DNA of 64,000 nt from Pseudomonas bubulae (lineage in GTDB: Bacteria > Pseudomonadota > Gammaproteobacteria > Pseudomonadales > Pseudomonadaceae): the NCBI RefSeq assembly GCF_900618535.1, contig NZ_UYJA01000001.1, positions 124,001 through 188,000 on the forward strand, in the 5' to 3' direction. Each line of letters starts with the position of its first letter. Positions within the stretch are counted from its first letter, which is position 1. The notes under the pieces were generated by a model. It searched no databases, was not told the DNA's origin, and saw only the letters and a program-made list of their open reading frames with translations. Both the position numbers and the translations under genes were made by a program. Below are positions 11,373-55,149 of this stretch, piece after piece.

Positions 11373-11858
11373 GTGACCCGTGCATCTGTGCATACCCTGC
11401 GCCCGCTGCCCGAGCTTGATTACCATGACAGCAGATCGGTGCTGCTGCCTGTGCAGATCACGGCGCTGCAAGCCTGGAACCTGATGACAGCCGGGCAGGG
11501 GCCGCTGATGCGCCTGGCGTTTCGAACCCGAGACGGGATTTCTTCGTTATTTGGCGTAAAGCGCATTGGCGGTTTCTCCGGTACCCGGCGCGAGGCCGTG
11601 CAGGCAGGCGACTACCTGGATTTCTTTCTGGTAGAGCACAGCGCCCCCGAGGTATTGGTGCTGACCGAGCGTGACCGGCATCTGGATGTGATGACCTGTG
11701 TGTCGATGGCTGATCGGGTACTGACAATCACCTCCTCTGTGGTCACCCATAACACCTTTGGCCGTCTGTATATGCTGCCGGTGGGGCCGGCGCACAAACT
11801 TATTGTCAACAGCTACCTCAAGCGCCTGAAGCGCAAGCTGCAAGGGATGGAGCCCTGA
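11373..11858 (+). CDS. DUF2867 domain-containing protein
   Basis: A 161-residue protein resembling DUF2867: an N-terminal DYHDSRSV segment, a central DYLDFFLVE strand, and a C-terminal THNTFGRLYMLPVGPAHKLIV block characteristic of the family. It uses a GTG start with a GGGAG site upstream. Function unknown. It lies in a run of small, closely spaced genes with the GFA and GNAT genes. Confidence 0.75.
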   Translation: MTRASVHTLRPLPELDYHDSRSVLLPVQITALQAWNLMTAGQGPLMRLAFRTRDGISSLFGVKRIGGFSGTRREAVQAGDYLDFFLVEHSAPEVLVLTERDRHLDVMTCVSMADRVLTITSSVVTHNTFGRLYMLPVGPAHKLIVNSYLKRLKRKLQGMEP

Positions 11859-11862
11859 ATTT

Positions 11863-12300
11863 ATGAACATAGCCATAAGACTTGCCAATCAGGCAGATAT
11901 CCCGACAATTTTTGTCATCCGTACCCGCGTCAGGGAGAACCCTCTTTCTCACCAACAGTTAACTGAAATGGGCATTACCCCCGACGCCATAGGTCAGGCG
12001 ATGGAAGCCGCTCCCTGTATCTGGGTGGCCGAGGTCGAGGGTGTTACGGTGGGGTTTGCCATGGCCGATGCCGAGGATGGCTTTGTCTTTGCCGCATTTG
12101 TCCTGGCCGAATTCGAGGGGCTCGGGCTGGGTCGCAGACTGATGGCGAAGGCCGAGGCGTTTCTGTTTCAGCATCACCCCACGATTTGGCTGGAGACCGC
12201 TGAAAACAGCCGTGCCAGCGGTTTTTATCGGCACCTTGGCTGGCAGGCGGTGGCGAATTTGCCTGAAGGTGATGTTCGTTTTGAAAAATCACGGACGTAG
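11863..12300 (+). CDS. GNAT-family N-acetyltransferase
   Basis: A 145-residue GNAT protein. Motif A, the acetyl-CoA pyrophosphate-binding segment, is EFEGLGLGRRLMAKAE. WLETAENSRASGFYRHLGW is the usual C-terminal motif B region. It follows the DUF2867 gene by four bases. The acyl acceptor is unknown. Confidence 0.88.
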   Translation: MNIAIRLANQADIPTIFVIRTRVRENPLSHQQLTEMGITPDAIGQAMEAAPCIWVAEVEGVTVGFAMADAEDGFVFAAFVLAEFEGLGLGRRLMAKAEAFLFQHHPTIWLETAENSRASGFYRHLGWQAVANLPEGDVRFEKSRT

Positions 12301-12311
12301 CAGGGAAGGGT

Positions 12312-12806
12312 ATGCACATTCGATTGACGCAAGCCAGTGACTGGATGCTGTTGAAGCAGGTTCGCCTGGCAGCGCTTCTGGAGGCCCCGACGGCATTTGG
12401 CGTGAGCTATCAAACGGCGGCCAGTTACACCGACGAGCAGTGGCAAGAGCGCGCTGATTCAGGGGCGGGGACGCAATTCTGGCTGGCCATCGAGGACAGC
12501 AAGGCGGTGGGCATGATCGGTGCCGGGGTGAGCGAAAACCGGCGCTATAACTTGATCGGCATGTGGGTCGAGCCCGGCGTGCGCGGCGCCGATGTGGCCG
12601 CCCGGCTGGTTGGCGCAGTCAAGGCCCGGGCGCTGCAGGGTGGGCATGAGTACGTTTATCTCGAGGTAGCCCCGGACAACGCAAGAGCTGCCAGCTTCTA
12701 CCTGAAGCAAGGGTTCAGGTTCAGGGATGAATGGGAACCCTTGGCAAGTCATCCCTCTATCAGGTTGCAGACGATGTGCTGGGTTGTGACTCCAGACAGC
12801 CCCTGA
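12312..12806 (+). CDS. GNAT-family N-acetyltransferase
   Basis: A 164-residue GNAT protein: the strand-4/loop region is WVEPGVRGADVAARLVGAV, and EVAPDNARAASFYLKQGF is the motif B region. It is only about 38 percent similar by eye to the preceding GNAT, so it is not a recent duplicate. Both are in the same direction and 11 bp apart. Confidence 0.87.
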   Translation: MHIRLTQASDWMLLKQVRLAALLEAPTAFGVSYQTAASYTDEQWQERADSGAGTQFWLAIEDSKAVGMIGAGVSENRRYNLIGMWVEPGVRGADVAARLVGAVKARALQGGHEYVYLEVAPDNARAASFYLKQGFRFRDEWEPLASHPSIRLQTMCWVVTPDSP

Positions 12807-12876
12807 AATCGGCTACACACTCCTCTCGTCGAAATATCTGTCAGAAAAATTGACCAGAATGATCCTACGCAGTTTA

Positions 12877-12892
12877 CTGTATGTTCATACAG
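12877..12892 (+). promoter_or_regulatory. LexA (SOS) box upstream of resident umuDC
   Basis: CTGTATGTTCATACAG fits the gamma-proteobacterial LexA consensus CTGT-N8-ACAG, with only one mismatch in its palindrome. It lies 19 bp upstream of the umuD start, so the umuD and broken umuC transcription unit should be DNA-damage inducible. Confidence 0.9.
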
Positions 12893-12911
12893 TTATCGTA
12901 AGGCGTGCGTC

Positions 12912-13340
12912 ATGAGCTTCACTTCCTTGGGTCCCATTGCTGAAGATGGCGTTCGCCTGCCACTTTGCTCCTTCAAAGTCCCCGCGGGGTTTCCGTCACC
13001 GGCGGCGGATCATATCGAGAAGGAAATTTCCCTCGATGAACTGCTCGGTATCCGTGCGCCCCATGTGTATCTGGTGCGCATCGACGGCGACAGCATGCAG
13101 GGAGTGGGGATTTTTTCCGGGGATCTGGCGGTGGTGGACCGTGCTATCGAGCCCGGGCATGGCCATGTGGTGGTGGCGCTGCTCAATAACGAGCCGATAT
13201 GCAAACGCCTGTGCCTGCGTGGCAAGAGCGTTGTGCTGCAATCCGAAAACCCGAAGTATCCGGACCGGTATGTACTCGAAGGTGATGAACTGACAGTCTG
13301 GGGCGTGATTACCTATACCGTGCGCAGCCATGGCCACTAA
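12912..13340 (+). CDS. umuD: UmuD/RulA-like translesion polymerase subunit (S24 peptidase)
   Basis: A 142-residue LexA-type autoprotease. The probable cleavage site is Ala-Gly in VPAGFPSPA, near residues 25-26. The catalytic Ser lies in GDSMQGVG and the Lys in NNEPICKRL. It is the accessory subunit of polymerase V: self-cleavage on RecA filaments gives UmuD'. It overlaps the umuC start by 11 bp. The gene is intact, but its partner umuC is split by the island, so resident Pol V should be lost unless UmuD pairs with the island UmuC. Confidence 0.92.
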
Positions 13341-13680
13341 GCCTGCGCCGGTTTTTGCCCTGATCGATTGCAACAGTTTTTACGCCAGTTGTGAGCGTGT
13401 GTTCAGGCCCGACCTGGCCAAGGTGCCCATTGTGGTGCTGAGCAACAACGACGGCTGCGTGATCGCCCGCAGTTATGACGCCAAGCCTCACGTGAAAATG
13501 GGCGAGCCGTATTTCCAGATCAAGGATCGGCTCGAGCAACTGGGGATTGTGGCGTTCTCGTCCAACTATGCGTTGTATGGCGACATGAGCGAGCGTGTCA
13601 TGAGCCTGATCGAGGCGATGTTGCCGGCTGTCGAGGTCTACAGCATCGATAAGAATAAGTTGCATACTATGGACGTCTAA
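13330..13680 (+). pseudogene. umuC: umuC (rulB), 5' part, truncated by island insertion
   Basis: The first about 108 residues of Y-family polymerase UmuC are present, including the catalytic [17 protein letters not shown] and [10 protein letters not shown]. The frame then leaves the family right after YSID and gains nine foreign residues and a stop. The missing remainder, beginning IDESFADLSG, is at the far end of the island. The split falls within the Ser-Ile-Asp-Glu catalytic motif, so the truncated product cannot be an active polymerase. Confidence 0.93.
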
Positions 13681-13703
13681 AGTTAAATTTTGTCCCCATG
13701 GAC
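13645..13703. repeat. Left island end with ATGGAC repeats
   Basis: The core ATCGA is followed by TATGGAC (13668-13674) and CCATGGAC (13696-13703). The same motifs occur near the right end, partly inverted. These are candidate recombinase-binding sites, seen only as short sequence matches. Confidence 0.5.
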
Positions 13704-13711
13704 ATTGATGC

Positions 13712-15025
13712 TTGTTCTTACAGAGATTTCCCTTGCCTACCGTCGAACACATTCACTTCAGTCCGCATGACCTTTCTGTCAAAGACCGCATGATTACCTA
13801 TTCGCTGAATAGCTCCCGTGCAGTGATCGAAGGATTACCACAAATATTCTGGGAAGACGGCTTGCCCTGGAGAGAAGCCAATCTCTGGGCTATGGAGAGA
13901 GTCACCAATGGTGAGGCACTCCTTAAGACCGTTTCTAGCAACCTGAACGGGCTGTTGAACTACGCGAAGTTTTTGGAGAGTCGCAGGCTTCAGTGGTTCG
14001 AGTTTCCGTCTCGAAAGGCTGATCGATGTCTTGTTCAGTACCGTGGGGCGCTTATCAAGGCTCGTGATGCTGGTAATATCAGTCCTGCCACGGCTTCCGA
14101 GTACATGCGTAACTGCATCAGTTTCTACAGGTGGGTTAGGAGGCGTGGCCTTCTAAATCCGCTATTGCCGCTGTGGAAAGACAAGCGCTATTTCATCAAA
14201 TACTTTGACCAGGTCGGCTTCGAGCGAACGCTAGCTGGCACCACCACCGATCTGGGTATTCCAAACCGACAACGCATTGGGATCACTTTGGAAGGTGGGC
14301 TACTTCCTGTGTCTGCGGTTGATCGAGACGCCATTCTTGATTTCGTTAAACAGAACGCCTCACCCGAGCTTTATCTGATGTTGGCTCTAGGTTTCTTTAC
14401 GGGTATGCGACTAGGAACGATCTGTGACCTTCGTATCGATACGTTGGAGCGTGCCCTACATGATCCGTCTGCTAAAGGTCTGCTTCTAATATCCGTAGGG
14501 CCAGGTGCGTCGCCGCCCGCGCATACCAAATTTGGTGTAACTGGCCAGGTATGGATTCCCGAAGCGTTGTGTTCAGAAGTCTTGGAGTACGCCAAGGGTC
14601 TTCGCAGGTTGACTCGCGAGGCATCTGCTGCTGGCGAGCATCAAGACTTAGTGTTCTTGACACGTTTCGGAAACCCTTTCGGACGTCGCAACAGTGATCA
14701 ATCCTCGGCCATAAACGTTGAGATGTCATCGCTTAGAAAATTAGGCATCGCGTCGGGCATCAAGGCGCTCAGGAAGTTTCGCTTCCACCAATCCCGGTGC
14801 ACCTTCGGAACTGAGCTAGCTATGCTCGCTTTAGCAAATTGCACTGATGTGGCGATAGTGATTGCGATGGTCAGCAATGCATTGCTTCACGGTCGAAACT
14901 CGGAAGCCACCACCTTCAAATACATTAAGTTTGTGCAGGCCGCACCTGCTAAGCAGGCCCTTGCGAACAGCTTCATGACTGCGTTTACAGGAATTGCTTC
15001 AAGGCAGGGAGCGAGCAATGAGTAA
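13712..15025 (+). CDS. Tyrosine recombinase/integrase, first of the left-end trio
   Basis: About 437 residues. The C-terminal catalytic domain of the phage-integrase family is visible: GFFTGMRLGTICDLR (first Arg, near residue 230), FHQSRCTFGTEL (His-x2-Arg), LLHGRNSEATTFKYI (second His region and putative Tyr nucleophile). The N-terminal about 170 residues look like a core-binding domain. The start is uncertain: TTG at 13712 lacks a good ribosome site, and other starts exist up to ATG 13790. It overlaps the next gene by 8 bp. It probably cuts the island ends and may correspond to GmtY of Gamma-Mobile-Trio islands, which was not tested. Confidence 0.82.
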   Translation: MFLQRFPLPTVEHIHFSPHDLSVKDRMITYSLNSSRAVIEGLPQIFWEDGLPWREANLWAMERVTNGEALLKTVSSNLNGLLNYAKFLESRRLQWFEFPSRKADRCLVQYRGALIKARDAGNISPATASEYMRNCISFYRWVRRRGLLNPLLPLWKDKRYFIKYFDQVGFERTLAGTTTDLGIPNRQRIGITLEGGLLPVSAVDRDAILDFVKQNASPELYLMLALGFFTGMRLGTICDLRIDTLERALHDPSAKGLLLISVGPGASPPAHTKFGVTGQVWIPEALCSEVLEYAKGLRRLTREASAAGEHQDLVFLTRFGNPFGRRNSDQSSAINVEMSSLRKLGIASGIKALRKFRFHQSRCTFGTELAMLALANCTDVAIVIAMVSNALLHGRNSEATTFKYIKFVQAAPAKQALANSFMTAFTGIASRQGASNE

Positions 15026-16754
15026 CCTGACGTCTTTAGACCTGACGTTTCCAATGCTTGAGTACGGGAAAACCGAGACGCCATGGGATTTGGCACCGCT
15101 TTTATACAGCGGTGGTGCTGGGGCAAAAGTGAAGACCGTGCGCAGTGAAATCACATCAGGTGTTTTAGGTGATCTTTTGCTGGAACGGGTAGAGCTTGTG
15201 AAGGAGCTTCATGACTGTTTGACCGACGACCTTGTCGGCGGGGGGAGCCGCTTTTCGGCAAATAACAAGATTGGTGCGTTGAGGAAGTTTTTCCAGTGGG
15301 TGGATCAGTGCGAGCGTCCGTTGAGCATTGATACGGTCACGGAGGAATACCTGAGGTGGGCTGAACATCTTTTACAGCGTCATCGCGTGGAAGGATATTT
15401 AGCTGCCGGATCGTTATATGACGCGGCAAGTTTAACCGCGACGATGCTCGACCGAGTTCTAGGCCGAAGCTCGACGCTTCTGTACAGCACCCGAATTCGC
15501 AAGCCTAGAGGCAACGGAAAGGCCAGTAATGGGAGCGCTGATAAGCAAAGTTTAGAAGAGAGCTTTTCATTTGGGCAATTCATTGCCGACGTCTGTACGT
15601 CCCTTACCTATGAAGCTATGACGGGGCCGCTTCCCATCCATGTAGAATTGCGGTCGGGTTCGACGCTATCTATCTGGTGCGGCTTGCGCGATACAGAGAA
15701 GGCAGCGTCACGACGGAGCCGACCTCAAACCAAATTCCAGATTGCGGACATCCTTCGAAACCGCGAACTTCGGAACGCTGACGTTTCAATCGAGACTCGA
15801 TACCCGGCGGTGAATCTACGAATCGAAGCCGAGTTGCTGATGTTCATCGCACAAACCGGCATGAATTTATCCCAGGCGCATCAGCTTCGAATTGACCAAT
15901 ACCATTACACGAGTCATCTCGATGGTTACCAAGTGCGGTCTTACAAAAATCGCCGTCAGGGTGAAGTGCTGTTTGACGTTTTCTCAAGCTATAAGCAGTG
16001 GTTCGAACGCTACATTGAGTGGCGAAACACGTGGTTTCCAGACGATCCAGATGGACTTCTTTTCCCTCTCGTCCGTCCTGGGGGACGTCTCATTTCAGAA
16101 GCTCCCCAGTTCACGGCTACTGCGCGCGTTTGCACCGATTCAAATGTTCGATTCGTTCGACCTCGTAAGCTCCGGGGTGCGCGTATTAATTGGCTGTTAC
16201 GTGAGTCGCAACGCCCCGAACTGGTGGCCGAAATCGCACAGCACACTGCTGAAACTTTGATCCGTGTGTACGCCGAGCCCAATCCGCAAATTGCGATGAT
16301 TGAAATCACACGATTTCATCGGCAAGCAGATCCCGTCGTTTGCTCACCTGCTCCAGGTACTTGTGTCGCGCCGATACCAGAATCGGTCGTGTATGCTCCG
16401 ACTAATGCTCCTGAACCCGATTGTATTAACGCAGCGGGTTGCCTTTTCTGCGTCAATCATCGGGATATTGAAAGCGAGGATCACGTCTGGTCTCTGAGTA
16501 GTTTGCGAGTGCTCAAGAGCTTGGAGCTAGTTAGATATCGCCCAGCTTGCAAGGATAGATCTGACGAGGCTGACCATCCAGCAATGCTCGCAATCGAGCG
16601 TCTGAGTGCGAAGTTACGGTTTTTTCAAGAGAGTAGCGAGGTGCGTCGGCTTTGGGTGGATGAGGCACTGGCCCGCATAGCTGAGGAGGACTATCACCCA
16701 GCTTGGGACGGATTTATTCGGCTTGCGGAAGTTACAGCGGGGCCTTCCCTATGA
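15018..16754 (+). CDS. Large recombinase-like protein, second of the trio, with altered catalytic Arg
   Basis: 578 residues. A degenerate integrase domain is seen in the middle: FIAQTGMNLSQAHQLR occupies the position of the usual TGMRxSE box but has Asn for the first catalytic Arg. RPRKLRGARINWLL replaces the His-x2-Arg box. IAQHTAETLIRVYAEP keeps a His and Tyr. The C-terminus has clustered cysteines (CINAAGCLFCVNH) suggesting a metal site. ATG overlaps the first integrase stop, and the stop overlaps the third gene's ATG. It may be a structural or regulatory partner rather than a catalyst. Confidence 0.75.
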   Translation: MSNLTSLDLTFPMLEYGKTETPWDLAPLLYSGGAGAKVKTVRSEITSGVLGDLLLERVELVKELHDCLTDDLVGGGSRFSANNKIGALRKFFQWVDQCERPLSIDTVTEEYLRWAEHLLQRHRVEGYLAAGSLYDAASLTATMLDRVLGRSSTLLYSTRIRKPRGNGKASNGSADKQSLEESFSFGQFIADVCTSLTYEAMTGPLPIHVELRSGSTLSIWCGLRDTEKAASRRSRPQTKFQIADILRNRELRNADVSIETRYPAVNLRIEAELLMFIAQTGMNLSQAHQLRIDQYHYTSHLDGYQVRSYKNRRQGEVLFDVFSSYKQWFERYIEWRNTWFPDDPDGLLFPLVRPGGRLISEAPQFTATARVCTDSNVRFVRPRKLRGARINWLLRESQRPELVAEIAQHTAETLIRVYAEPNPQIAMIEITRFHRQADPVVCSPAPGTCVAPIPESVVYAPTNAPEPDCINAAGCLFCVNHRDIESEDHVWSLSSLRVLKSLELVRYRPACKDRSDEADHPAMLAIERLSAKLRFFQESSEVRRLWVDEALARIAEEDYHPAWDGFIRLAEVTAGPSL

Positions 16755-18772
16755 ACATGCTCACGACGTTAGGGCTTTCTATCGAGTCGCCTCTCGCTGT
16801 TCCTGGGGCATCGAATTACCGTCCAGAGAGCTGGCCTCCGCCACCTGATTGGCCGGTCGTAATTGATGCACAGGGCAAAGTAATAAGCCGTTGGGGCGAT
16901 CCAATTTGGAGGCTTGATCCATGGGCCAAGAAGGCACTGACGCTGAATTTTGGTGATGGGCCAGTCAAAAAGTCAGCGGCGCCAATCAGCTCAAAGAACG
17001 CAAATTTACTTCGAATCATCACTGGCTGGTGGCTATATGGGCCGTATGGCGCTCGTGGCTGTAGATCCCTTAAGACGCGTTTCGACCAGATGCGGCGGCT
17101 GTTTGTTCTTTGCGAAGAGTCAGGAATACTTGCCAGCGAATTAAGCCACTTTCCACGCGTATGTGAGCGGATCCCTACCTTTCTTAATACCTCAAGAAAA
17201 ACCGAGTTTCTGACGTTAATGCATGAGCTTTACGCGTCCAGGGATGCCGTAGGGTTTACGTTGCTGGATTCAGGCTCCCTGACCCGTCTGGCTGCGCTTT
17301 TTCCAACTCACTACACAGCTCAAACACCGTACATCCCTCCGCGTATTTGGCGCTATCAAATCACCCGGTTGCGAGAGTGCCTTGATGACTTCCTGTCCCA
17401 TCGAGAACAGGTTGAAGCTTGTTATCGGTTCTGCTTCGCGGCCTACGAACATAACCAGAGGGTTTCGGAGAGAACGGCGTGCGTAAATGCCCCGCCTTTT
17501 AGCGGCCATAAAAATCAGCTTTCGGGCTTTAAAACGGGGCTTCGTTTTCTCGGCGCGTTTGCAGATACCGCGAAACGCTTCGGCATCTTTGAGCTACTTG
17601 AACGTTGGGTAGGTCGAAGTGGCGACTTGCAAGTAACAGCGCTGACTAGCTATCTGAGACTGGTCAACGGCGCGGGATTAGCTTACATCCTTAACTTCAG
17701 TCTCATGCGGGTCGAGGAGGCATGGAATCTTCGAGCAGGGTGCCTTGACATAGAGCACGACAAGAGCTTCGGCGACATTTTTTTGTTACGTGGGCAGACG
17801 ACAAAAACGCTCTCTGATAGCGACGCCGTTTGGGTCACATCCCCATCTGTGACAGTCGCAGTGAAGGCGATGGAGGTTATTTCTCTGTTTCGCTCACTAC
17901 ACGCACCTCACGAAGTCGCGAGAGTTCTCACCGGGCGTTACTTGACCGATTTTTCTTACGAGCCTTGGAGTTCGTTGCGCAATAAAGGTAATCACTCACT
18001 GAGGCCGAGCATTCAGTCATATTCCGATCTTTTGGTGAAATACGGGAAGCTTTTTGACTTAGAGCGTTTGCGTATCACGCCTGAGGATTTGAAATTGGCC
18101 CGGCTAGCTACCCCTTCATTGCCCGAGGAGTATCAAGTGGGTGCTGTATGGCCGTTGGCCTGGCATCAGTTGCGTAGAACTGGGGCAGTGAACATGCAAG
18201 CTTCCGGGCTTGTAAGTGATGCTTCGCTTCAGTACCAGCTCAAGCACGCCACACGAGCGATGAGCCTTTACTACGGACAAAATCACTCACGGATACGCCT
18301 AGAGGAGAAGGCTCACACTCTGTACGTTCGCACAATGTACGAGACGCTTGGAAGAGAGTTACAGCAGCTTACGAGTGAGCGTTTTGTCAGTCCCCATGGA
18401 GACAAACGAAAGGCTGAGATCGTTCGGCTGATTTCGCCAGAGGATGCGAAGAAGATGATTGGTTTGGCAAAGAAAGGCACGATCGCCTGTCGCTCGATAA
18501 TTCTTGGCGTTTGCTCTAGTCGCGAGCCTTGTCCGTACGGTGGAATTGACAACATTGCCCATTGCGGGGGCGGTGATTCAGTGGATGCAAAACCTTGCCC
18601 TGATGTGCTGTATGACTCAGAACGATTGGGCGTGGTAGATGATCTTGAATATGTACTCAAAGAGCGGCTTGCTACTGCTCAGGATGGGAGTCCGCTAATG
18701 GAATCGTTGATGGCTCAACAGCGAAGCGTAGAGAGCTTCCGTCGTGTCGTAGGGAGCGCAAATGGACGTTGA
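16751..18772 (+). CDS. Large tyrosine recombinase, third of the trio
   Basis: 673 residues. The long N-terminal region is unrecognised. The integrase domain is in the second half: FSLMRVEEAWNLR (Arg), WHQLRRTGAVNM (His-x2-Arg) and LKHATRAMSLYYG (His and Tyr). The C-terminal Cys/His-rich segment (CRSIILGVCSSREPCPYGG) suggests zinc binding, as in the second protein. The start ATG overlaps the upstream TGA. The length and Cys-rich tail resemble the large integrases of Gamma-Mobile-Trio or Tn554-like systems; the assignment is tentative. Confidence 0.78.
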   Translation: MNMLTTLGLSIESPLAVPGASNYRPESWPPPPDWPVVIDAQGKVISRWGDPIWRLDPWAKKALTLNFGDGPVKKSAAPISSKNANLLRIITGWWLYGPYGARGCRSLKTRFDQMRRLFVLCEESGILASELSHFPRVCERIPTFLNTSRKTEFLTLMHELYASRDAVGFTLLDSGSLTRLAALFPTHYTAQTPYIPPRIWRYQITRLRECLDDFLSHREQVEACYRFCFAAYEHNQRVSERTACVNAPPFSGHKNQLSGFKTGLRFLGAFADTAKRFGIFELLERWVGRSGDLQVTALTSYLRLVNGAGLAYILNFSLMRVEEAWNLRAGCLDIEHDKSFGDIFLLRGQTTKTLSDSDAVWVTSPSVTVAVKAMEVISLFRSLHAPHEVARVLTGRYLTDFSYEPWSSLRNKGNHSLRPSIQSYSDLLVKYGKLFDLERLRITPEDLKLARLATPSLPEEYQVGAVWPLAWHQLRRTGAVNMQASGLVSDASLQYQLKHATRAMSLYYGQNHSRIRLEEKAHTLYVRTMYETLGRELQQLTSERFVSPHGDKRKAEIVRLISPEDAKKMIGLAKKGTIACRSIILGVCSSREPCPYGGIDNIAHCGGGDSVDAKPCPDVLYDSERLGVVDDLEYVLKERLATAQDGSPLMESLMAQQRSVESFRRVVGSANGR

Positions 18773-19208
18773 ACTCCCTACTCGCCGCAGCGCGGCGGAT
18801 CAATATCGTGACGCTTTTGAGCGCCTCAAACTCAATAGGCCACAGCTTCTACCGAAGGGGACACCGGTCACTCAAAACAACGTAGCCAAAGAGGCCGGGA
18901 GCGATCCGTCGGCGCTTAAGAAATCTCGTTTCCCGAGTCTCATCGCAGAGATAAAAACCTACGTGGAACAACATGCGGAGGAACGGCCTCCTTCGTTGAA
19001 CAAGGTAAATCTTCTCGCCCGGCAGAAAAGCCGCGCCCTGCGTGATCGGATTGAGCAAGTTGCCCGGCAGCGTGACCAACTCGCAAGCTTATTGAGCGAA
19101 GCGGATGCGAAAATCCTTGAGCTGTATGACCGTATCGCTGAGCTTGAGCGACAGCTGCCTGCGTCGAATATAATTTCGTTGGATACGCGCGGGCCGAGAA
19201 AGCTTTGA
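18762..19208 (+). CDS. Small HTH/coiled-coil protein at the end of the recombinase operon
   Basis: 148 residues. The first half has a helix-turn-helix-like segment (TQNNVAKEAGSDPSALKKSRFP), and residues about 85-130 form a heptad-like coiled coil (ALRDRIEQVARQRDQLASLL). AGGGAG precedes the ATG, which lies 11 bp inside the end of the third recombinase gene. Small proteins of this kind end Tn554-like (TnpC) and Gamma-Mobile-Trio (GmtX) operons and help recombination. An equivalent role here is inference from position. Confidence 0.68.
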   Translation: MDVELPTRRSAADQYRDAFERLKLNRPQLLPKGTPVTQNNVAKEAGSDPSALKKSRFPSLIAEIKTYVEQHAEERPPSLNKVNLLARQKSRALRDRIEQVARQRDQLASLLSEADAKILELYDRIAELERQLPASNIISLDTRGPRKL

Positions 19209-19673
19209 GATAACAGTGCGCATGCAGCTAGTCACCTGGGTGTAGGGGCTGGCCTATTCCGACCACTCTGCTGCTACCTTGATGCGGTGAGCCGGAAAGA
19301 GATGACCTGCTAGATTGAGGCATCTCAGCCGGCAGCTCCGGGCTAGCTGCTTCCTGTCTACTGGCTGCGATCCGCCGATGGAAACAGGCAGGTAAGGGTC
19401 GATTGCTGCCTGTCATTTACAGCTGCTACAGGGTAAGGATGTCCAGCCAGCGCCTCCAGCACAGTGCCCATGCTTTACAAATACGGTGTACCAGCCAAAA
19501 CCCGCAGGCACGATCATATGCACCCTGGGTACGTACGACCCGCGACTAGCAGCTAGGCGTAGGTTTTTTTGATTGGCAGGCAAATTTCGCGGCAGTTCAT
19601 TGCCATTGCCATGTTTGGCTCCTTTTACGAGCATTTCGTCAGTCCGTCTTGCCCTAAGCATTCGACCGCTATA
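19209..19673. other. Non-coding stretch between the recombinase operon and island umuDC
   Basis: No convincing gene is seen. Reading frames here are short and lack family sequence or ribosome sites. It contains the upstream region of the island umuDC. Short interrupted inverted repeats around CAGGCAG/CTGCCTG (19387-19420) are visible but do not form a clear terminator or attC. Confidence 0.5.
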
Positions 19674-19689
19674 CTGTACATATGAACAG
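19674..19689 (+). promoter_or_regulatory. LexA (SOS) box upstream of island umuDC
   Basis: CTGTACATATGAACAG matches CTGT-N8-ACAG. It sits 18 bp upstream of the island umuD start, nearly the same spacing as at the resident operon, so both should respond to the host LexA. Confidence 0.9.
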
Positions 19690-19707
19690 CTACTTTGGTT
19701 GAATTAT

Positions 19708-20139
19708 ATGTCGATTGATTATCTCGGGCACATTGATACTCCAGGGCAGGCCTTGCCGCTTTACTCGTTTACTGTCCCATCAGGATTTCCTTCACTAGCA
19801 CAGGATCACATCGAACGAGAGATATCGTTAGACGAGCTTCTAGGGCTATGTCTGCCTCAAGTTTTTCTGGCTAGAGCTGGTGGCGATAGCATGAAAGGCG
19901 TCGGGATTTTCGATGGTGATCTAGTCGTAGTAGACCGAGCTATCGAAGCGAAACCTGGCTTAATAGTCATCACCGCGCCAAACAATGAGCCGCTTATCAA
20001 GACGCTTTGCAAAGATGGGGAGCAGCCTCACTCCGAAAACGCTACCTTCGCGCCCAGATATATTTTTGAAAGCGATGAGCTGCTTATCTGGGGAGTGGTT
20101 CTCTACAGCATTCACAGTCACACCCATGCAAGAGCCTAA
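19708..20139 (+). CDS. umuD: Island UmuD/RulA-like protein (S24 peptidase)
   Basis: 143 residues, clearly homologous to the resident UmuD but diverged throughout. The catalytic Ser is in GGDSMKGVG and the Lys in NNEPLIKTL. The putative cleavage site is Ser-Gly (VPSGFPSL) rather than Ala-Gly. The ATG at 19708 gives the family length; the frame is open upstream but crosses the LexA box. The 3' end overlaps umuC by 14 bp. With the island umuC it should give the host a complete SOS polymerase. Confidence 0.92.
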
Positions 20140-21406
20140 ACCGTGCTTTGCCCTAGTGGATTGCAACAGCTTTTATGCAAGCTGCGAGCGTGTCTTCCGG
20201 CCCGACTTGGCCCGCGTTCCCATTGTAGTTCTAAGCAATAACGATGGCTGTGTGATTGCTCGTAGCGCCGAAGCAAAGCCATTCATCAAGATGGGCGAGC
20301 CCTACTTTCAGATCAGAGACAAACTCGCGCAGCACGGGATTGTGGCTTTCTCTAGCAACTACGCCCTCTACGGTGATTTGAGCCAGCGAGTGATGACCGT
20401 TATCGACAGTCTGGTTGTAAATTCGATGGCCTACAGCATCGACGAAGCATTTTGTGACCTAAGCGGAATGACTGTGCCATTGGAGCAGTTGGGCCGGCAA
20501 ATACGCTCGAAGGTGCTTCGTTACACCGGCATTCCTGTGGGGGTAGGTATTGCCGGAACCAAGACACTGGCCAAGCTCGCAAACCATGCATCAAAGCGTT
20601 GGCAACTCCAAACCGGTGGTGTCGTAGACATCACTGACTCAGTTCGCCGAGACAAGCTGTTAAAGGCCTGCGACGTCAGCGATGTATGGGGCATCGGTAG
20701 AAAAATGACCGAACATCTTAAGGGAATGGATATCAACACTGCTTGGGACTTGGCCAAGGCCGATCCCTGGACTTTACGTAAGCGGTTCAGTGTATTGGTC
20801 GAGAAAACCGCTAGAGAGCTTCAAGGTGTTCCCTGCCTTGAGATGGACGAGATAGATCCACCGAAGCAGGAAATCTGTTGCAGCCGAATGTTCGGAACCC
20901 GTCTTACTGCTATCGAACCTCTCCGAGAGGCCGTCGCTACGTATTCAGCCAGGGCCTGTGAAAAGCTAAGGGCGCAAAACTCTCTCTGCAAAAAGGTACG
21001 GGTGAGCATACGCACCGGCATGTTCAATCCCGACGAGCCCAAATATGCTCGCGGTGTTATCTGTGAGCTGCCATATCCAACGGACGACACACGGGTCATC
21101 ACAAAGGCTGCGGTCGCGGCCCTGAGCGAGCTGTTCCAGGAGGGATTTAAATTCAGCAAGGCGGAGATACTGCTGATGGATCTGCGGCAGCCTAACGAAT
21201 TCACCGGCGACCTTTTCTCTGTTTCTCAACCTGAAGCAACCGAGAAAGTCATGAGCGTGTTGGATGCAATTAACGGTAGGTGGGGCAGGGGGACACTACG
21301 TGTTGCCAGGGTGCCCTCAGATCCTGCTTGGGGCATGCGCAGGGAGATGATGAGTCAGAGTTTCACTACGCGTGTTGATCAGCTCTGGACGGTGTACTGC
21401 AAGTGA
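20126..21406 (+). CDS. umuC: Island UmuC/RulB-like Y-family DNA polymerase, intact
   Basis: 426 residues, full family length. Catalytic motifs [17 protein letters not shown] and [13 protein letters not shown] (Asp-Glu) are intact. [34 protein letters not shown] (helix-hairpin-helix) and the little-finger region through [14 protein letters not shown] follow. It contains an uninterrupted copy of the island's own target site (TACAGCATCGACGA at 20432). Codon use and divergence from the split copy indicate an old acquisition, not a recent duplication of the resident gene. Confidence 0.94.
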
Positions 21407-44266: not shown

Positions 44267-44402
44267 GACACCAGAACAGCTGCGCGCCTTGGCCGAAATG
44301 GCCTTGCAGTCGCTTTCCAGAGTCGGCTCGATGTGTCATAAAACCTCCGCGTTGAGAAGTTCGACGAGCAACGCGTATGGGTGTCTTAGAGAGCTTACGC
44401 TT
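44267..44402 (+). pseudogene. IS66 TnpC N-terminal remnant
   Basis: A short frame reads PEQLRALAEMALQSLSRVGSM, similar to the start of IS66 TnpC (TPEQLRALAAQLMS). It has no start and ends within 45 codons, so it looks like a decayed IS66 copy. Confidence 0.4.
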
Positions 44403-46344
44403 TGAGCGGCCATTCCTCTGGTACCAAAGCTGGAGGTTTAGACCAGGGATCTTCTACCAGTGCATCCTGGAACCACTGATCTCGGAGGTTCGCGTGCTCG
44501 GTGATGATAATTTGAAACCCAGGAACCTCATCCTGGGTAAATTTTAGAAGTAGCTCAAACAGCTTACGCACGGACACCATGTCAGCATCTGCCTCGGTCA
44601 TCTGTACAGAGCCATCGGCCTCCTGATAAACCTTTTCGGAGGGAAAATAGACCTGCGTTGGCTGGTCGATCATCAGGAATCGTGGAAGAGGGCGATTGCT
44701 CTTGGCCGCGAACCAGTGGAGTGCGAGCAGCGCACTTAGATGGTAAGCAAGATGGTTTTCACCGCCCCCCGTTCTGGCCATCGGCACCGGACGTTCTGTT
44801 TTGTCGAACACCACTGTCAGTTGCTTCAGATCGAAGCGTGCAGGGTAATCACTGAACTCCGCCCCAAAGCGTGTGATGTATCGCGACATCTGGGCGGATA
44901 TATTATTCAAGATCGATGTTAGGCGATCATCACTGTCATCCGCCCCAATCGCACTCTCTAGATCCTTGACACGCAGTTCGCGACGCTTGTGCTCAGCGCG
45001 GAGATTGCTCAAGTCAGCATCAGGGATCAGTTGTTCCAAAAACCAGCTGATTCTGCCGACAACAACGGCGGCAGCGGTGGTACGAGCTTCTGCTGAAGCG
45101 AGCGCGACATTTGCAGCGATTGCAGCGCTTAACTCCGCATCTTTCTCGGCGATCTGATCGGAGATTTTTTGATGAGTTTCCTCCTCCGTAGTCAAGTAGG
45201 CCTGCAACTTCGGCCGCTGTCCGGCAACGACAGTCATTTCCACTTCTAGCGAGGCTAGTTCCTGTAGGAACGATGCGGCAATTGGGGTATCCATTGCCAG
45301 GTTGCTTTCACAGAACGGCCACTGCCACTCACCTGTAGCGACGTTTTTGGGAAGCGATTTGATTGAGGCTAAACGATCGATATGTTGGCTAGCTTCATTC
45401 GAAAAGCCGCCAGCTCTTCTCTCAAACTGCTTGCCGGCATCGATCCGGATCTTTATCTCCCGACGCGTCTTACGCAGAATAGCGAGCTCAGCCTCTAATT
45501 TTGTCACCCTATCGCCGTCGTCAGCCTCCCGTTTTAGAGGTATCCATTGAGTCACCTCGCGCAGGGCCCTAATCAACCCATTCTCACCGCTAGGCGTAGC
45601 ATTGGAGCTGATGATGCCAACAGCCTTGGCCTCTGAGTACAGCGAGACGGCTTTGAGTTGGAAGGTGTCGAGGCTCTGCTGTGCTTCCGAGAGCAGTTTC
45701 GCCTGAAGCCTAAGGTCTCGTTTTGCAATTCGTAGTTTTGCTTCGTGCTCAAACCGTTCATTCGTCGACACGCCCAGTAAAATTGGAAGGGTGTCTCGAA
45801 TGGCCTGTGGCTGAAACTGCTCGTTCTGTCGGTAAAACAGCTGGTCTTTGTTTGCGACCAAACCCTGCTTTTGGAACATGTAGTAGTACGTATGCTTGAT
45901 ATTCGCGTCAAAGCTTACACGGCTATGCTCAGCGCCGACGTCGGTACGGTTTTCCGGAATTCCGATTAAACGTGAGAGCAGGGACGTGACGGTATCGTCA
46001 TCAGCGTTAACTGCTAGCTCGCCGAAGGGAAGTGCAACTACCTGGTCACCGTATCTAACCATCGCGGTGCTACAGCTCACACCACCCGCTGGGGGGGTGG
46101 GCTTTGCAATCATCACCTGGATGCCAGGCAGCTGGTAGATAACTGCAAACCAGGACACCTTGTCACGGATGATCCCTTCCGGGACGTTGAACGTGGATCG
46201 CCCCATGCAGTATTCGATGATGTCCGAAAGCGCGGATTTACCTGTTGAGGATCTCCCCGTAATGACGTTCAGTCCGTCGACCTTGAATTTGAGATCTCGA
46301 CGCTGACCGTCGTGGCTATACACATGGATGGAGCTAATCTTCAT
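44395..46344 (-). CDS. ABC-3C system ATPase (DUF3732 family)
   Basis: 649 residues. Walker A GRSSTGKS is at 30-37. Long coiled-coil arms occupy the middle. The C-terminal half has the ABC signature region (RTGGGENHLAYHLSALLALHWF) and Walker B RFLMIDQPTQVYFP, the pattern of DUF3732 ATPases. The start ATG overlaps the stop of the middle-component gene (ATGA), so a longer frame start was rejected. It is the motor of a three-gene ABC-3C conflict system and is thought to gate the effector on sensing nucleoprotein or invader DNA. Confidence 0.85.
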   Translation of the reverse strand: MKISSIHVYSHDGQRRDLKFKVDGLNVITGRSSTGKSALSDIIEYCMGRSTFNVPEGIIRDKVSWFAVIYQLPGIQVMIAKPTPPAGGVSCSTAMVRYGDQVVALPFGELAVNADDDTVTSLLSRLIGIPENRTDVGAEHSRVSFDANIKHTYYYMFQKQGLVANKDQLFYRQNEQFQPQAIRDTLPILLGVSTNERFEHEAKLRIAKRDLRLQAKLLSEAQQSLDTFQLKAVSLYSEAKAVGIISSNATPSGENGLIRALREVTQWIPLKREADDGDRVTKLEAELAILRKTRREIKIRIDAGKQFERRAGGFSNEASQHIDRLASIKSLPKNVATGEWQWPFCESNLAMDTPIAASFLQELASLEVEMTVVAGQRPKLQAYLTTEEETHQKISDQIAEKDAELSAAIAANVALASAEARTTAAAVVVGRISWFLEQLIPDADLSNLRAEHKRRELRVKDLESAIGADDSDDRLTSILNNISAQMSRYITRFGAEFSDYPARFDLKQLTVVFDKTERPVPMARTGGGENHLAYHLSALLALHWFAAKSNRPLPRFLMIDQPTQVYFPSEKVYQEADGSVQMTEADADMVSVRKLFELLLKFTQDEVPGFQIIITEHANLRDQWFQDALVEDPWSKPPALVPEEWPLKA

Positions 46345-46829
46345 GGTCTGATTCCGAATGCTGTATATATCGTTGATCTGTCGCCAATGCGCGCAAATTC
46401 GCGGCCTAGAAGGCGGGCCACTCGCTGGCAACTGATCGATTCCTCAGTTCCTGTGATCGCTTTCTTGGTCGTCTTGGGCGTTCCGATTAGTCGACCTTCT
46501 GGCGTGACCTGAAAGCAGCCCATATGCATGGCCAGCCCGAATGCTTCAAATGTGAACGGGAGCATCTCGGTTACCCGCTCAGCAAACGCAATGAGAAGCT
46601 GGGGATTATCCTCAATGGTCTTAAGTAAGTAGCTTCGACTGCTAGGGGCGAAAACTTCCCGGCTACCCTTGTGAAGCGATAACGGTAGAATCAATAGAGA
46701 TAATGAGAAGGGAATGCCCCTTGCGTCTTCGAGCTCAAATGCCTCAAGTGAGCGCATCATTAGGAGCGCGCAAAAGGCCGGATTGAAGAGGTTCTTCGTT
46801 TCAAATGGCCTCAAGTCCCATCGCTTCAT
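46341..46829 (-). CDS. ABC-3C system middle component
   Basis: 162 residues. RPFETKNLFNPAFCALLMMRSLEAF, then FSLSLLILPLSLHKGSREVF and LLIAFAERVTEMLPFTFEAFGLAM are typical of the small middle components of ABC-3C systems. It overlaps both neighbours by four bases (ATGA), so the three genes are translated as a unit. It probably bridges effector and ATPase. Confidence 0.83.
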   Translation of the reverse strand: MKRWDLRPFETKNLFNPAFCALLMMRSLEAFELEDARGIPFSLSLLILPLSLHKGSREVFAPSSRSYLLKTIEDNPQLLIAFAERVTEMLPFTFEAFGLAMHMGCFQVTPEGRLIGTPKTTKKAITGTEESISCQRVARLLGREFARIGDRSTIYTAFGIRP

Positions 46830-48040
46830 GGGTTAACCCCCACGACTCGCTGTACTCCGGCGAGGAAAGACGGATGCCAATACACCCTAGGGGTAGGGCG
46901 ATGATTGGCTAAAATATGAAAGCCCCCGCGTAGGACATAAGGCTCGGTAACGCGGGCTCGGATCTGCAGTGAGGCCATGCTGCCGCTGCCTAGTTCGGCC
47001 CACCTGTAGAGGTTCTTGCCGGCGTCAGTAAGAACTGAGTCTGCGCTGTTCTCGTTCAAGTCCTCGAAGACTATCTCGCGGTACCGTTCCCATTCGTCAA
47101 CCAAGCGATCTTCGTAGAGCTCAATTTCCTGCGAAACGAGAAGATTCTCACGTGCCCATGCAGATCGCTGCTCGAAAGCGCGATAGTAGTCCAAGATGGC
47201 ATTTCGGATTCGGATTGAGCTGATGCCCAGAGCTCGGATCTGCTGAACGAACACCCTGGTATCAGACTCCACATCGACTTCTTCAGCCGGGGATACATTC
47301 CTGAATGTGATCGGCAGGTTGTCCGAGGCATACTCTTCACAATACGAAGAAAGCTTGTCGGATATCTCATTGTTGTTGATCGGAGCGTCCTCTTGGCCTG
47401 ACAGCATTCGGACGATCAGATCGTTCCACCACCCTTCAAGTCGCTCGTAAATAGCGCCCCTGATTTCGCGGCGAACGGTTCTCATTTTACCTTTGATAAT
47501 CCCTGGTATATCGACGATCCTCGGGCTTTCATCAAAAATGGTAATCCTCGCGAAGAAGTCCTCTTTCTCTGAGTCAGAAAAGTCCCGCAGGGCTTCTTGG
47601 ATAGGTAGCAGTAGTTGAGATTTACTGCTTTCCAACGCATCAACAGCCGTCACCCATAGCCTGGGTTCTAAGTCAGCGGGCGAGGCGTCCGGCGAGAAAT
47701 GGCGCAGAAATGAGTCGGATGACACTGTGGCCGTGCTGAACAAGAAGAATCTCAGATCGGACTGGATCCTATCTTGGTCATTATACCGATGGATCCAAAT
47801 GTTCACCGACTTCCAGAAGTCGACCGAAAGGTTAGTAATTCGATCCCCTAAGGCCTTGTGTTTCAGTGACGCGAGGGTCTTTACACCGTTAGCGTCAATG
47901 AAGTCCAAGTCATCTTCTTTCTCGATCAGTACAGATGTGCTTTCAGGCATTTCAAACATTTTTAATAGGGCAAATCTAGGCTGGTAAATATAGCCAAGTC
48001 CCTGCTCGCTCGCTGAAAAGCGATCCATTGAGCTACTCAC
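46826..48040 (-). CDS. ABC-3C effector: Cap4-like nuclease domain plus ABC-3C C-terminal domain
   Basis: 404 residues. The N-terminus has GYIYQ (16-20), EKEDDLD (40-46) and LKHK (59-62), matching the DUF4297/Cap4 dsDNA-nuclease pattern of E-D-x-K type. The C-terminal region ending RVYWHPSFLAGV is the ABC-3C C-terminal domain that docks to the other components. GTG start with GGAGG seven bases upstream. It is the first gene of the operon and the probable toxic DNase of the system. Confidence 0.78.
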   Translation of the reverse strand: MSSSMDRFSASEQGLGYIYQPRFALLKMFEMPESTSVLIEKEDDLDFIDANGVKTLASLKHKALGDRITNLSVDFWKSVNIWIHRYNDQDRIQSDLRFFLFSTATVSSDSFLRHFSPDASPADLEPRLWVTAVDALESSKSQLLLPIQEALRDFSDSEKEDFFARITIFDESPRIVDIPGIIKGKMRTVRREIRGAIYERLEGWWNDLIVRMLSGQEDAPINNNEISDKLSSYCEEYASDNLPITFRNVSPAEEVDVESDTRVFVQQIRALGISSIRIRNAILDYYRAFEQRSAWARENLLVSQEIELYEDRLVDEWERYREIVFEDLNENSADSVLTDAGKNLYRWAELGSGSMASLQIRARVTEPYVLRGGFHILANHRPTPRVYWHPSFLAGVQRVVGVNP

Positions 48041-50394: not shown

Positions 50395-50522
50395 TATGGA
50401 CGGAATGCCGAAAATGGCAGTGATAAATTGGTATTTCCATGGACGCACGGCCTCAACCCTGGATGACCGGAGAGAGAGGCAGAGATGTATGTCCATAAGG
50501 TGGCATCTTTCCTTTACATCGA
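50395..50522. repeat. Right island end with ATGGAC repeats
   Basis: TATGGAC at 50395-50401, CCATGGAC at 50438-50445, inverted GTCCATA at 50491-50497, then the core ATCGA at 50518-50522. The last copy and the core form an imperfect inverted repeat with the left end (TCGAT, then TATGGAC after 22-25 bases). Confidence 0.5.
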
Positions 50523-51483
50523 CGAGTCCTTTGCCGACCTGAGCGGTATCGTTGACGTCACCGCCATGGGCCGTCAGTTGCGCAGTCGCATCCTGCAATG
50601 CACGGGCATTCCGGTGGGGGTCGGCATCGCGCATACCAAGACCCTGGCCAAGCTGGCGAATCACACCGCCAAGCGCTTGCAGGCCCACACGGGGGGCGTG
50701 GTGAACCTGTGTGGCGACCATGAACGTGACTGGGTACTGCGCAATACCGCGGTGTCGGAGGTCTGGGGCGTTGGCCGACGCATGACCGCGCATCTTGAAG
50801 GTATGGGGATTCGCACAGCGATGGACCTGGCCAAAGCGGACCCGTGGTCGCTGCGCAAAAAATTCAGCGTGGTGATCGAAAAAACGGCCCGTGAATTGAA
50901 CGGTACATCCTGCCTGGCCCTGGACGAGCCCGACCCGCCCAAGCAGGAGATCTGCTGCAGCCGCATGTTTGGCAAGCGCCTGACCGAGCTGGCACCGATC
51001 AAGGAGGCCGTAGCCACCTATATGATGCGTGCCTCGGAAAAACTCAGGGCACAAAAGTCGTACTGCCAAAAAGTCCGGGTCAGCATTCGTACCGGCATGT
51101 TCAACCCGGACGAGGCGAAGTACGCCAAGGGCGTGGTGGTGACCTTGCCCTATCCTACCGATGATGTGCGGTTACTCACCAGAGCAGCGGTGGATGCTCT
51201 GGAGCATGTGTTTCAGCCCGGTTTCAGATACAGCAAGGCCGAAGTGTTGTTGCTCGACCTGCGCCAGCCGGGGGAGTTTTCCGACGATCTGTTTGCCGTC
51301 AATCAACCGGCAGAAGCTTCACGGGTGATGGCGGTACTGGATGCCATCAATGGCCGCTGGGGCAGGGGCACGTTACGGGCCGCCAGCGTGCCGGGCAAAC
51401 CCGACTGGGGGATGCGCCGGGAGATGATGAGCCAGAGTTATACGACGCGGGTGGATCAGCTTTGGCAGGTTTCGTGCCGATAA
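50485..51483 (+). pseudogene. umuC: umuC (rulB), 3' part, with island-derived start
   Basis: From YIDESFADLSG onward this is the rest of the resident UmuC ([48 protein letters not shown]). The first 10 codons come from the island end. They include an ATG preceded by GAGG, so a protein lacking the N-terminal catalytic Asp could be made. It cannot be an active polymerase. Confidence 0.92.
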
Positions 51484-51889
51484 ATACGGCCGTTGATTGT
51501 GCAGAACTGTGGGCAATGAACTGTACGCGCAAAGTGGAGATCCGGTGTGTGAAGTTCAAACATATGGCCTGCTCAGAACACTGGGCTGTCGTGTGCTGCT
51601 GGTTTGCTTGTTGAAGACTCAAGAAAAATCAAGGTAGGAAAACCCTGAATTAATAGTGGGGTTATTCTTGCGCTTGCTCCTGGCAGTTGAATGTTAGTAC
51701 TGATGCTGTACTAATGGTGTTGCCCTGTTATATCAATTGCCGAACAGGCACTGGTTTTAATTGCAAGAGTGGCGGGCTATCAAGACTATCAAGAAAAGTC
51801 AAAAAAGCAGATGCCGGTACGTGCCTGCTATCAGGCAAGGTCAGGATTAAAGATGATAAACACAGTTGCATTGTATTGGTTGCTCACTT
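51484..51889. other. Intergenic region upstream of the tripartite exporter
   Basis: No gene is supported. It is A+T-richer than its neighbours and should hold the exporter promoter; no clear operator was recognised. Confidence 0.45.
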
Positions 51890-53017
51890 ATGCGATTTAA
51901 ATGGATTGTTTTTGTTGTCGGGCTGGTCGCATTATCTTCTTTTGCATTTTATGGGTTGTTTGATCGGTCTGATGAAGTGAGCCATATCGTTGCGCCAGTA
52001 ACGAAAATCGACATGGAAAGTCTGGTTTTGGCAACAGGCCCGATAGTCGCAACGGGCTTGGTCGATGTCGGCGCGCAGGTTAATGGTCAAGTTAAAACAA
52101 TCCATGTGCGACTGGGTGACAAGGTCAAAAAAGGCCAGGTATTAGTGGAGATTGATCCGGAGCTTCAGGAAAATGCCTTGAGCAAGGCGAAAGCCAGCCG
52201 CGATCTTGTACTGGCACAGCAAAAGGCCAAGGAAAAAGCGCGCCAGCGCGCAGAGAGGGTATTTACCCGCCAGCAAGCGCTGTACCAGGCAGATGCCAGC
52301 GCAAAAAGAGACCTTGAGCAAGCCGAAGTGGAGCTGGAAAATGCCCGGGCTGAAGTCTTCGTTCTAAAAAGCCAGATTCATTTGGCTCAAATCGAGATGG
52401 ATAGCGCAGTGGCTAATCTCGGGTATACGAAAATCAAGGCGCCTGCCGATGGCGAAATCATCGCTATTGTGACTAAAGAGGGCCAGACAATTGTGTCCGC
52501 CCAGACATCACCGACCATTCTGATTATGGGCAATATGGACAGGATGACAGTCAAGGCCAGAATATCCGAGTCGGATATTGTACGAGTGCAGGAGGGGCAA
52601 AAGGTTGTTTTTACCGTGACCGGTGCACCGGAGCTGTCTTTCGAATCGAACATTCTTGCCGTTGAACTTCTGCCGGAGTCCGTCGTTACTGACAGCAAAG
52701 AACTCTCAAAGCCCAATGCAACGTCCAATGTTCCTGTTTACTACAATGCTACGTTTGAAGTTGATAACCCTGATCGTCTGCTCAAGCCTTTGATGACAGC
52801 CAACGTTAAAATCACTCAGGAAAGCGTTGGTCAGGTGATGGCAATTCCTTTGGCCGCTCTCGGAAAAAAGCAGTCTGCGGGCAATCTTTATGAAGTGCGT
52901 ATATTGACGGAGCAGAAAGAAGTGATTGCAAGATCCATTGCGATCGGTCTGCGAAACAATACGCATGTGCAAGTTAAGTCGGGGCTTGAGCTAGGCGACA
53001 ATGTCATTATCGAATAG
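51890..53017 (+). CDS. macA: MacA-like periplasmic adaptor subunit
   Basis: 375 residues. An N-terminal membrane anchor (WIVFVVGLVALSSFAFYGLF), a lipoyl half (GAQVNGQVKTIHVRLGDKVKKGQVLVEID), a helical hairpin (residues about 90-160) and the second lipoyl half (IKAPADGEIIAIVTKEGQTI), followed by a beta-barrel region, are in MacA/PvdR order. It joins the MacB-type ABC pump to the outer-membrane channel encoded downstream. Confidence 0.85.
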   Translation: MRFKWIVFVVGLVALSSFAFYGLFDRSDEVSHIVAPVTKIDMESLVLATGPIVATGLVDVGAQVNGQVKTIHVRLGDKVKKGQVLVEIDPELQENALSKAKASRDLVLAQQKAKEKARQRAERVFTRQQALYQADASAKRDLEQAEVELENARAEVFVLKSQIHLAQIEMDSAVANLGYTKIKAPADGEIIAIVTKEGQTIVSAQTSPTILIMGNMDRMTVKARISESDIVRVQEGQKVVFTVTGAPELSFESNILAVELLPESVVTDSKELSKPNATSNVPVYYNATFEVDNPDRLLKPLMTANVKITQESVGQVMAIPLAALGKKQSAGNLYEVRILTEQKEVIARSIAIGLRNNTHVQVKSGLELGDNVIIE

Positions 53018-53075
53018 GCGTTGATTGACGTTGTGCTGTGGGAGTCATTGTTAATATTTATTTGTCGGGTAGTGT

Positions 53076-55118: not shown

Positions 55119-55149
55119 GTCAATGGGTTTGCCATCGTAATCATTCAAC

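Follow-up and report, generated by a model that had tools for sequence, protein, structure and literature searches.

Elements that settle in working genes pay for the damage, and the usual cures are a restored target end or the choice of harmless sites. A whole divergent replacement operon is a rarer cure, for which the recA island of Vibrio is a precedent (PMC4405046). The island concerned, the recA mobile element (RME) of Vibrio cholerae S24, interrupts recA and brings an intact, divergent recA of its own, the function of which was demonstrated experimentally; in the authors' view, this second recA saves the host from the loss, and umuDC is part of the cargo as well (PMC4405046). GInts, as described in the available part of the corresponding paper, combine two genes that encode recombinase domains with a third that has no Pfam hit and a small fourth one; their cargo after ginD varies, their ends are imperfect short repeats around a 6-nt core, and ssb, a ribonucleotide reductase gene and a gene for an ABC transporter are named there as targets (PMC5385486). 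Further hallmarks of the class are a short AT-rich 3' end and excision as a circle that requires all four genes. The term 'umuC' occurs nowhere in the text of that paper and 'rulB' occurs once, and no carried copy of a target gene is described in its Results and Discussion (PMC5385486). For the rulB integron-like elements (ILEs) of Pseudomonas, SOS-driven integrases have been proposed, an insertion in rulB of pWW0 was accompanied by no loss of UV tolerance, and the accessible part of the report describes no carried rulAB (PMC4542609). Among open-licence papers on rulB/umuC islands, GInts, SEs and replacement copies, no GInt was found described with a copy of the gene that it breaks.

In the present study, these systems were compared with a locus in the window, that is, the whole stretch of 64,000 nucleotides of Pseudomonas bubulae DNA that was analysed; the island, its gin and umuDC genes, the host umuDC genes, the two LexA boxes and the core copies given below are on its + strand. 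A GInt-type island of 36,873 bp, one copy of the core included, lies at 13650-50522. The whole umuC of the same-species genome G344 represents the empty site, and the alignment of 11773-13649 and 50517-55736 with this genome at 99.4% and 99.7% identity, with a 6-base overlap of CATCGA, sets these limits and locates the left and right 6-bp cores, attL (13644-13649) and attR (50517-50522). The insertion looks recent. The island begins with a ginA-like tyrosine recombinase of 437 aa (13712-15025; PF00589), a ginB-like tyrosine recombinase of 586 aa (14994-16754; PF00589, below the curated cut-off), a ginC-like protein of 689 aa (16703-18772; no Pfam hit, relatives at 33-95%) and a ginD-like small protein of 148 aa (18762-19208; no Pfam hit, recognised by position and conservation). 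These genes stand in the same order as in GInts, with the recombinase domain in the first two, none in the third and a small fourth, and this assignment is based on gene order, domains, repeats and ends. The flanking repeats are short and imperfect with a 6-nt core, the insertion site is fixed, and the ends are conserved: left ends are alike in 16 loci compared, with a variant form in three distant ones, and right ends are alike in 26 rows compared (21 after duplicate removal). With small variants, relatives have the same junctions, GATAAGAATAAGTTGCATAC on the left and TTTCCTTTA(CATCGA) on the right. The module (13645-19408) is ~94% identical in five of the ten matched plasmid records, several of which annotate an adjoining RulB fragment, and none of the ten upstream ORFs chosen beside distant ginA relatives is ssb, a neighbour that is common but not defining for distant GInts. 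Elsewhere in the cargo, at 44395-48040, there is a Lamassu/ABC-3C-like defence set (LmuA, LmuB, LmuC), which a helicase and an Mrr-like nuclease adjoin.

The target of the island is the host umuDC operon. The LexA box of this operon (12877-12892; exact pattern, CTGTATGTTCATACAG) is now located 5' of host umuD, the umuC stub and ginABCD, all in one direction. Host umuD (12912-13340; Pfam Peptidase_S24, 56% identity to carried UmuD by tblastn) is intact, has an Ala-Gly cleavage site and lies inside the stretch 99.4% identical to G344. As an observation of its own, ~220 bases 5' of umuD (11552-11772) are present in the window yet absent from G344. The 5' part of the broken umuC (13339-13653; tblastn and sequence) ends with SID, followed by element-encoded residues, and the 3' part (50517-51483) was recognised by tblastn and by the empty-site comparison. 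The break point is the Asp codon of the SIDE motif (codon 106), so that D12 and the D-E pair end up on different pieces, and such a split of the catalytic residues should kill the host Pol V. The earlier note had the host copy destroyed by the island; this is correct for umuC, split at SIDE, and too broad for the operon, since host umuD and its LexA box are intact.

Directly after ginABCD, as the first cargo, the island carries a umuDC operon of its own, consisting of two complete, overlapping genes, umuD (19708-20139; 143 aa) and umuC (20126-21406; 426 aa), preceded 34 bp before the umuD start by an exact CTGT-N8-ACAG LexA box (19674-19689; CTGTACATATGAACAG). The whole window contains three exact matches to this pattern on both strands, compared with 0.79 expected, and 5 of 100 shuffles reach three; a chance box precisely 5' of carried umuD is thus unlikely. 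Scans for promoter and terminator consensus sequences gave nothing beyond chance level. Carried UmuC matches IMS, IMS_C and DUF4113 and aligns with Y-family polymerases, with D12 and D106-E107 (SIDE) in place, and carried UmuD matches Peptidase_S24 and aligns with E. coli-type UmuD chains, with Ser61 and Lys98 in place; we take these to be the catalytic residues of the two proteins. An S24 UmuD, a Y-family UmuC, overlapping genes and a LexA box together give the locus the sequence features of a DNA polymerase V operon (umuDC/rulAB). The statement that the island has an intact, LexA-boxed umuDC with complete catalytic motifs was therefore confirmed by the complete ORFs, the Pfam matches and the exact box. 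In the source genome, a UmuC search of the whole assembly returned the carried copy, the two host halves and one DinB-like gene, and the carried umuC is the sole intact umuC found. Compared with the copy in Stutzerimonas stutzeri 4C29, identity falls from ~90% to 54-62% in the last 200 bases of carried umuC, a sharp drop that is probably a recombination joint. The 3' end (~21210-21406) would then be of another origin than the rest, and either of the two genes may be the mosaic.

The genus and family surveys comprised 398 genomes each, drawn from larger groups, and the locus scan took in 64 loci, among them 20 dropped for having less than 2.2 kb after ginD, one without ginC/D by script and three without a readable ginA start. 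The script classed 25 islands as umuC-inserted and 15 as others, and L031, the ginA of which is split by an insert, was reassigned to the former, giving 26 and 14. Within the 4 kb searched after ginD, umuDC directly follows ginD in 4 of the 26 umuC-inserted GInts and in 0 of the 14 others, two of which (L054, with ~105 bases before ginA, and L066, with a truncated gin module) are hardly open to judgement. Nor do the rows represent independent cases, GinC and GinD being identical in L028, L035, L036 and L039 and likewise in L042 and L050. The enrichment of carriage in umuC-targeting islands is not significant (Fisher p = 0.16). The carriers are the window island and those of S. stutzeri 4C29 (L037), Pseudomonas sp. 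REP124 (L032) and MWU16-30317 (L034). All four carried operons are open, and in each of them an exact LexA box precedes umuD by 34-36 bp (21 of the 25 umuD starts checked have such a box); and the grouping with decayed genes of related islands that would have spoken against the earlier note was looked for and did not appear. A fifth candidate, L080 (G586:C242), was rejected, as the umuC after its ginD looks, from sequence alone, like the 3' part of the target; this distant GInt has almost no cargo and seemingly sits in umuC near codon 14, which would be a further insertion point. Two other loci deserve mention in their own right: within the island of L031, next to its right end, there is an extra umuC 3' fragment (11517-11792; codons 332-423), perhaps a relic of an older target or cargo, and L036, labelled Streptomyces sp. 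IBSBF 2953, has GinC and GinD identical to those of Pseudomonas islands, so that contamination is suspected.

These numbers bear on a simpler explanation, in which umuDC is an ordinary passenger, a common and useful mobile cargo caught at the usual entry point after ginD, and the umuC target is coincidental or results from shared plasmid neighbourhoods. We consider this explanation rather unlikely. The 22 of 26 umuC-inserted GInts without umuDC at that place and the p value are consistent with it, as is the frequency of UmuC matches on plasmids (4137 of 72,556 records). However, umuDC comes first among the cargo genes behind ginD in all four carriers, and the comparison of the window island with the whole 4C29 island revealed no other common cargo, the matches being limited to gin, umuDC and umuC-homologous stretches. 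The REP124 and MWU16 islands cease to match where umuC ends, at its stop codon, although the MWU16 contig continues for only ~1 kb from there. An origin of the carried umuDC from a known plasmid was rejected, as 0 of the 4137 records had their best place above 80% identity and 75 had it at 60-80%; the highest plasmid UmuC identity among the matches listed was 71.5%.

The phylogeny also bears on the passenger explanation, since the slot after ginD proved to be filled by two separate umuDC types. In a UmuC tree of 40 rows, built without duplicates and without the divergent rows L040/L122, L123 and L125, the window and 4C29 copies on the one hand and the REP124 and MWU16 copies on the other form two separate clades (100/100 each), the latter inside a 25-row Pseudomonas group (100/100) and the former adjoining that group. 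The phylogeny of the umuDC copies suggested in the earlier note thus places the carried umuC in a clade separate from the host copy, and a derivation of the carried operon from the host copy was rejected on this basis and on 56-74% protein identity (tblastn; UmuD 56%). In the gin tree, many inner branches of which are weak, the four carriers are scattered and four changes are needed; a single origin of carriage is supported by neither tree. Synonymous divergence between the window and 4C29 islands is 0.45-0.74 for gin, 0.68 for umuD and 0.46 for umuC (codons 1-360; 0.66 for the whole gene), and that between REP124 and MWU16 is 0.13-0.31, 0.20 and 0.21, respectively. Because gin and umuDC diverge similarly within each pair, each umuDC type may have been associated with its gin modules for a long time. 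The gin modules of the window and REP124 are only 0.14-0.27 apart at synonymous sites, whereas their umuDC operons are saturated, and such related modules with different operons suggest repeated capture or exchange in one slot. The dN/dS values of umuC are 0.05 for window-4C29 (codons 1-360; 0.10 for the whole gene) and 0.10 for REP124-MWU16, and those of umuD are 0.11 and 0.16; these low values show that the carried genes are under purifying selection and hence, as read from codon divergence, selected for function. Beside the 4C29 island, the host UmuD (L037, 6210-6629) has Ala-Ser in place of Ala-Gly, as if decaying, and the carried one is normal.

Copies of umuC were also counted in 13 genomes, searched whole, that have a gin module of the close family (GinC at 84% or more); several are many-contig drafts, where the lack of a umuC may be due to incomplete assembly. 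In three (G000, G167 and G485), no intact umuC other than the carried one was found, an intact umuC occurs elsewhere in two (G235 and G480), and none was found in eight (G030, where the best copy starts at codon 37, G056, G105, G171, G321, G362, G639 and G643). Among four genomes with 65% relatives, an intact umuC occurs elsewhere in G255, and none was found in G555, G578 and G678. As no intact umuC was found in 8 of the 13 genomes, drafts among them, the loss of umuC seems to be tolerated and the cost of insertion often bearable, which again agrees with an ordinary passenger. In contrast, the intact umuC genes away from ginD in G235, G255 and G480 adjoin no gin module, with the proviso that G480 is too fragmented to place fully and that for the second copy of G235 (C16) the comparison covered a short stretch only. 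In the three carrier genomes searched whole, no intact umuC was found besides the carried one. The suggestion that carriage lowers the cost of insertion is not borne out as a general rule, 22 of the 26 umuC-inserted GInts having no umuDC at that place.

We tentatively propose, as the best interpretation of these data, that the island replaces the polymerase it breaks, and regard as on balance probable the overall account in which a GInt breaks umuC and brings a LexA-boxed umuDC as the replacement. First, the island sits within the umuC SIDE motif, in the Asp codon, as the site, the 6-bp core and the empty site in the sister genome show; its ginABCD recombinases would have placed it there, and the separation of the catalytic residues would abolish host Pol V activity. 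Second, it carries a divergent, complete and LexA-boxed umuDC as the first cargo after ginD. Third, upon DNA damage LexA would leave both boxes, host UmuD, carried UmuD and carried UmuC would be made, and the cell would regain a working Pol V, now island-made. The presence of two types of umuDC, both under purifying selection, in the slot after ginD of four islands most likely reflects an advantage that a replacement on board gives to islands breaking umuC, which does not imply that they need one. The claim that the island would replace the polymerase it inactivates is thus partly supported, by the only intact umuC found in the genome, three other carriers and purifying selection, and does not amount to a general rule. 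If the account is true, it would describe a route for the one-step replacement of the error-prone polymerase of a lineage. A wider version, in which the slot after ginD in umuC-targeting GInts is a target-replacement cassette where separate umuDC operons are captured, kept and exchanged, so that the family swaps the SOS polymerase of its hosts for its own behind the LexA-controlled umuD promoter of the host, appears distinctly doubtful; were it true, the mutagenic polymerase of the cell would belong to the island, and so would the timing of its recombinases in the SOS response. The two umuDC types on one element family are natural replicates and the island-free same-species strain is a ready control, so that what a broken Pol V costs and what the carried copy brings in return are directly measurable.

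Two other explanations of the carried operon fare worse. It is very unlikely that the operon is decaying or half-used, with carried UmuC pairing with the intact host UmuD and carried UmuD losing self-cleavage. Carried UmuD has Ser-Gly at its cleavage site (Ser at P1), where most UmuDs compared have Ala-Gly and that of E. coli has Cys-Gly, it lacks two residues that its closest relative has, and it departs at 7 of 70 conserved columns compared with 3 in the sister copy (6 of 274 compared with 4 for UmuC). With 7 of 70 conserved columns altered and the cleavage residue among them, the activity of carried UmuD is uncertain; however, its dN/dS of 0.11 relative to the sister copy, its intact Ser/Lys dyad and the occurrence of Ser-Gly in a Kushneria UmuD (L041) all argue against decay. 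Less probable still is a portable landing site, with a still usable attB (TACAGCATCGACGAA) in the SOS-controlled carried umuC at which other elements could integrate. Of the 15 bases of the host att site in G344, 14 recur in the carried umuC of the window, those of the core among them, and umuC genes with two different elements do exist (L028, L064 and probably L123), but none of the four carried umuC genes is interrupted, and the two type-b copies (L032 13136-14392 and L034 8699-9955) read SIDE-IWLS for SIDE-AF-DL just after the att core, the core itself being kept despite these differences. An element-made immunity through a recoded att core was rejected for the window, where the carried umuC keeps TACAGCATCGACGAA.

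Finally, the window island, read as a replacement of the broken polymerase, can be set beside the described systems. Like it, the rulB ILEs insert site-specifically into genes of this family, always in one orientation and with a LexA box upstream, as far as the available part of the report goes (PMC4542609). Their GAT+CTGAGGG junction, however, sits near umuC codon 40 in three surveyed loci, whereas the window island sits at codon 106 with a left junction reading GATAAGAATAAG, and the genes beside the ILE junction (tested in L028) run recombinase, no hit, recombinase, small protein, unlike the GInt order of the window. The UV test on pWW0 rulB concerned the element type with the codon-40 junction, not the codon-106 one. 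The SEs (strand-biased circularizing integrative elements) likewise share a four-gene recombination module and a 6-bp core with the window island but have the order intA-tfp-intB-srap, and SEs and GInts are set apart by sequence in the part of the paper considered (PMC10214605). In L028 (6742-33236), as well as in L064 and probably L123, one umuC harbours both an SE-like element near codon 40 and a GInt at codon 106; the SE-like junction, GATCTGAGGG, is identical to the one published for rulB ILEs, and these ILEs resemble SEs, the gene order having been examined in L028. The closest likeness in principle is that with the RME, which also combines site-specific insertion in an SOS gene with a divergent, intact, LexA-boxed copy on the island (PMC4405046), just as the window island breaks umuC and carries an intact, divergent umuC. 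According to the available text, the RME differs in its target (recA, not umuC), in its XerS-like and phage integrases with 9-bp inverted repeats and in its occurrence in both orientations, and its carried copy was shown experimentally to function (PMC4405046). The break-and-replace principle is thus already in print through the Vibrio RME (PMC4405046), and the case of umuC and a GInt would appear to be a new variation of it.
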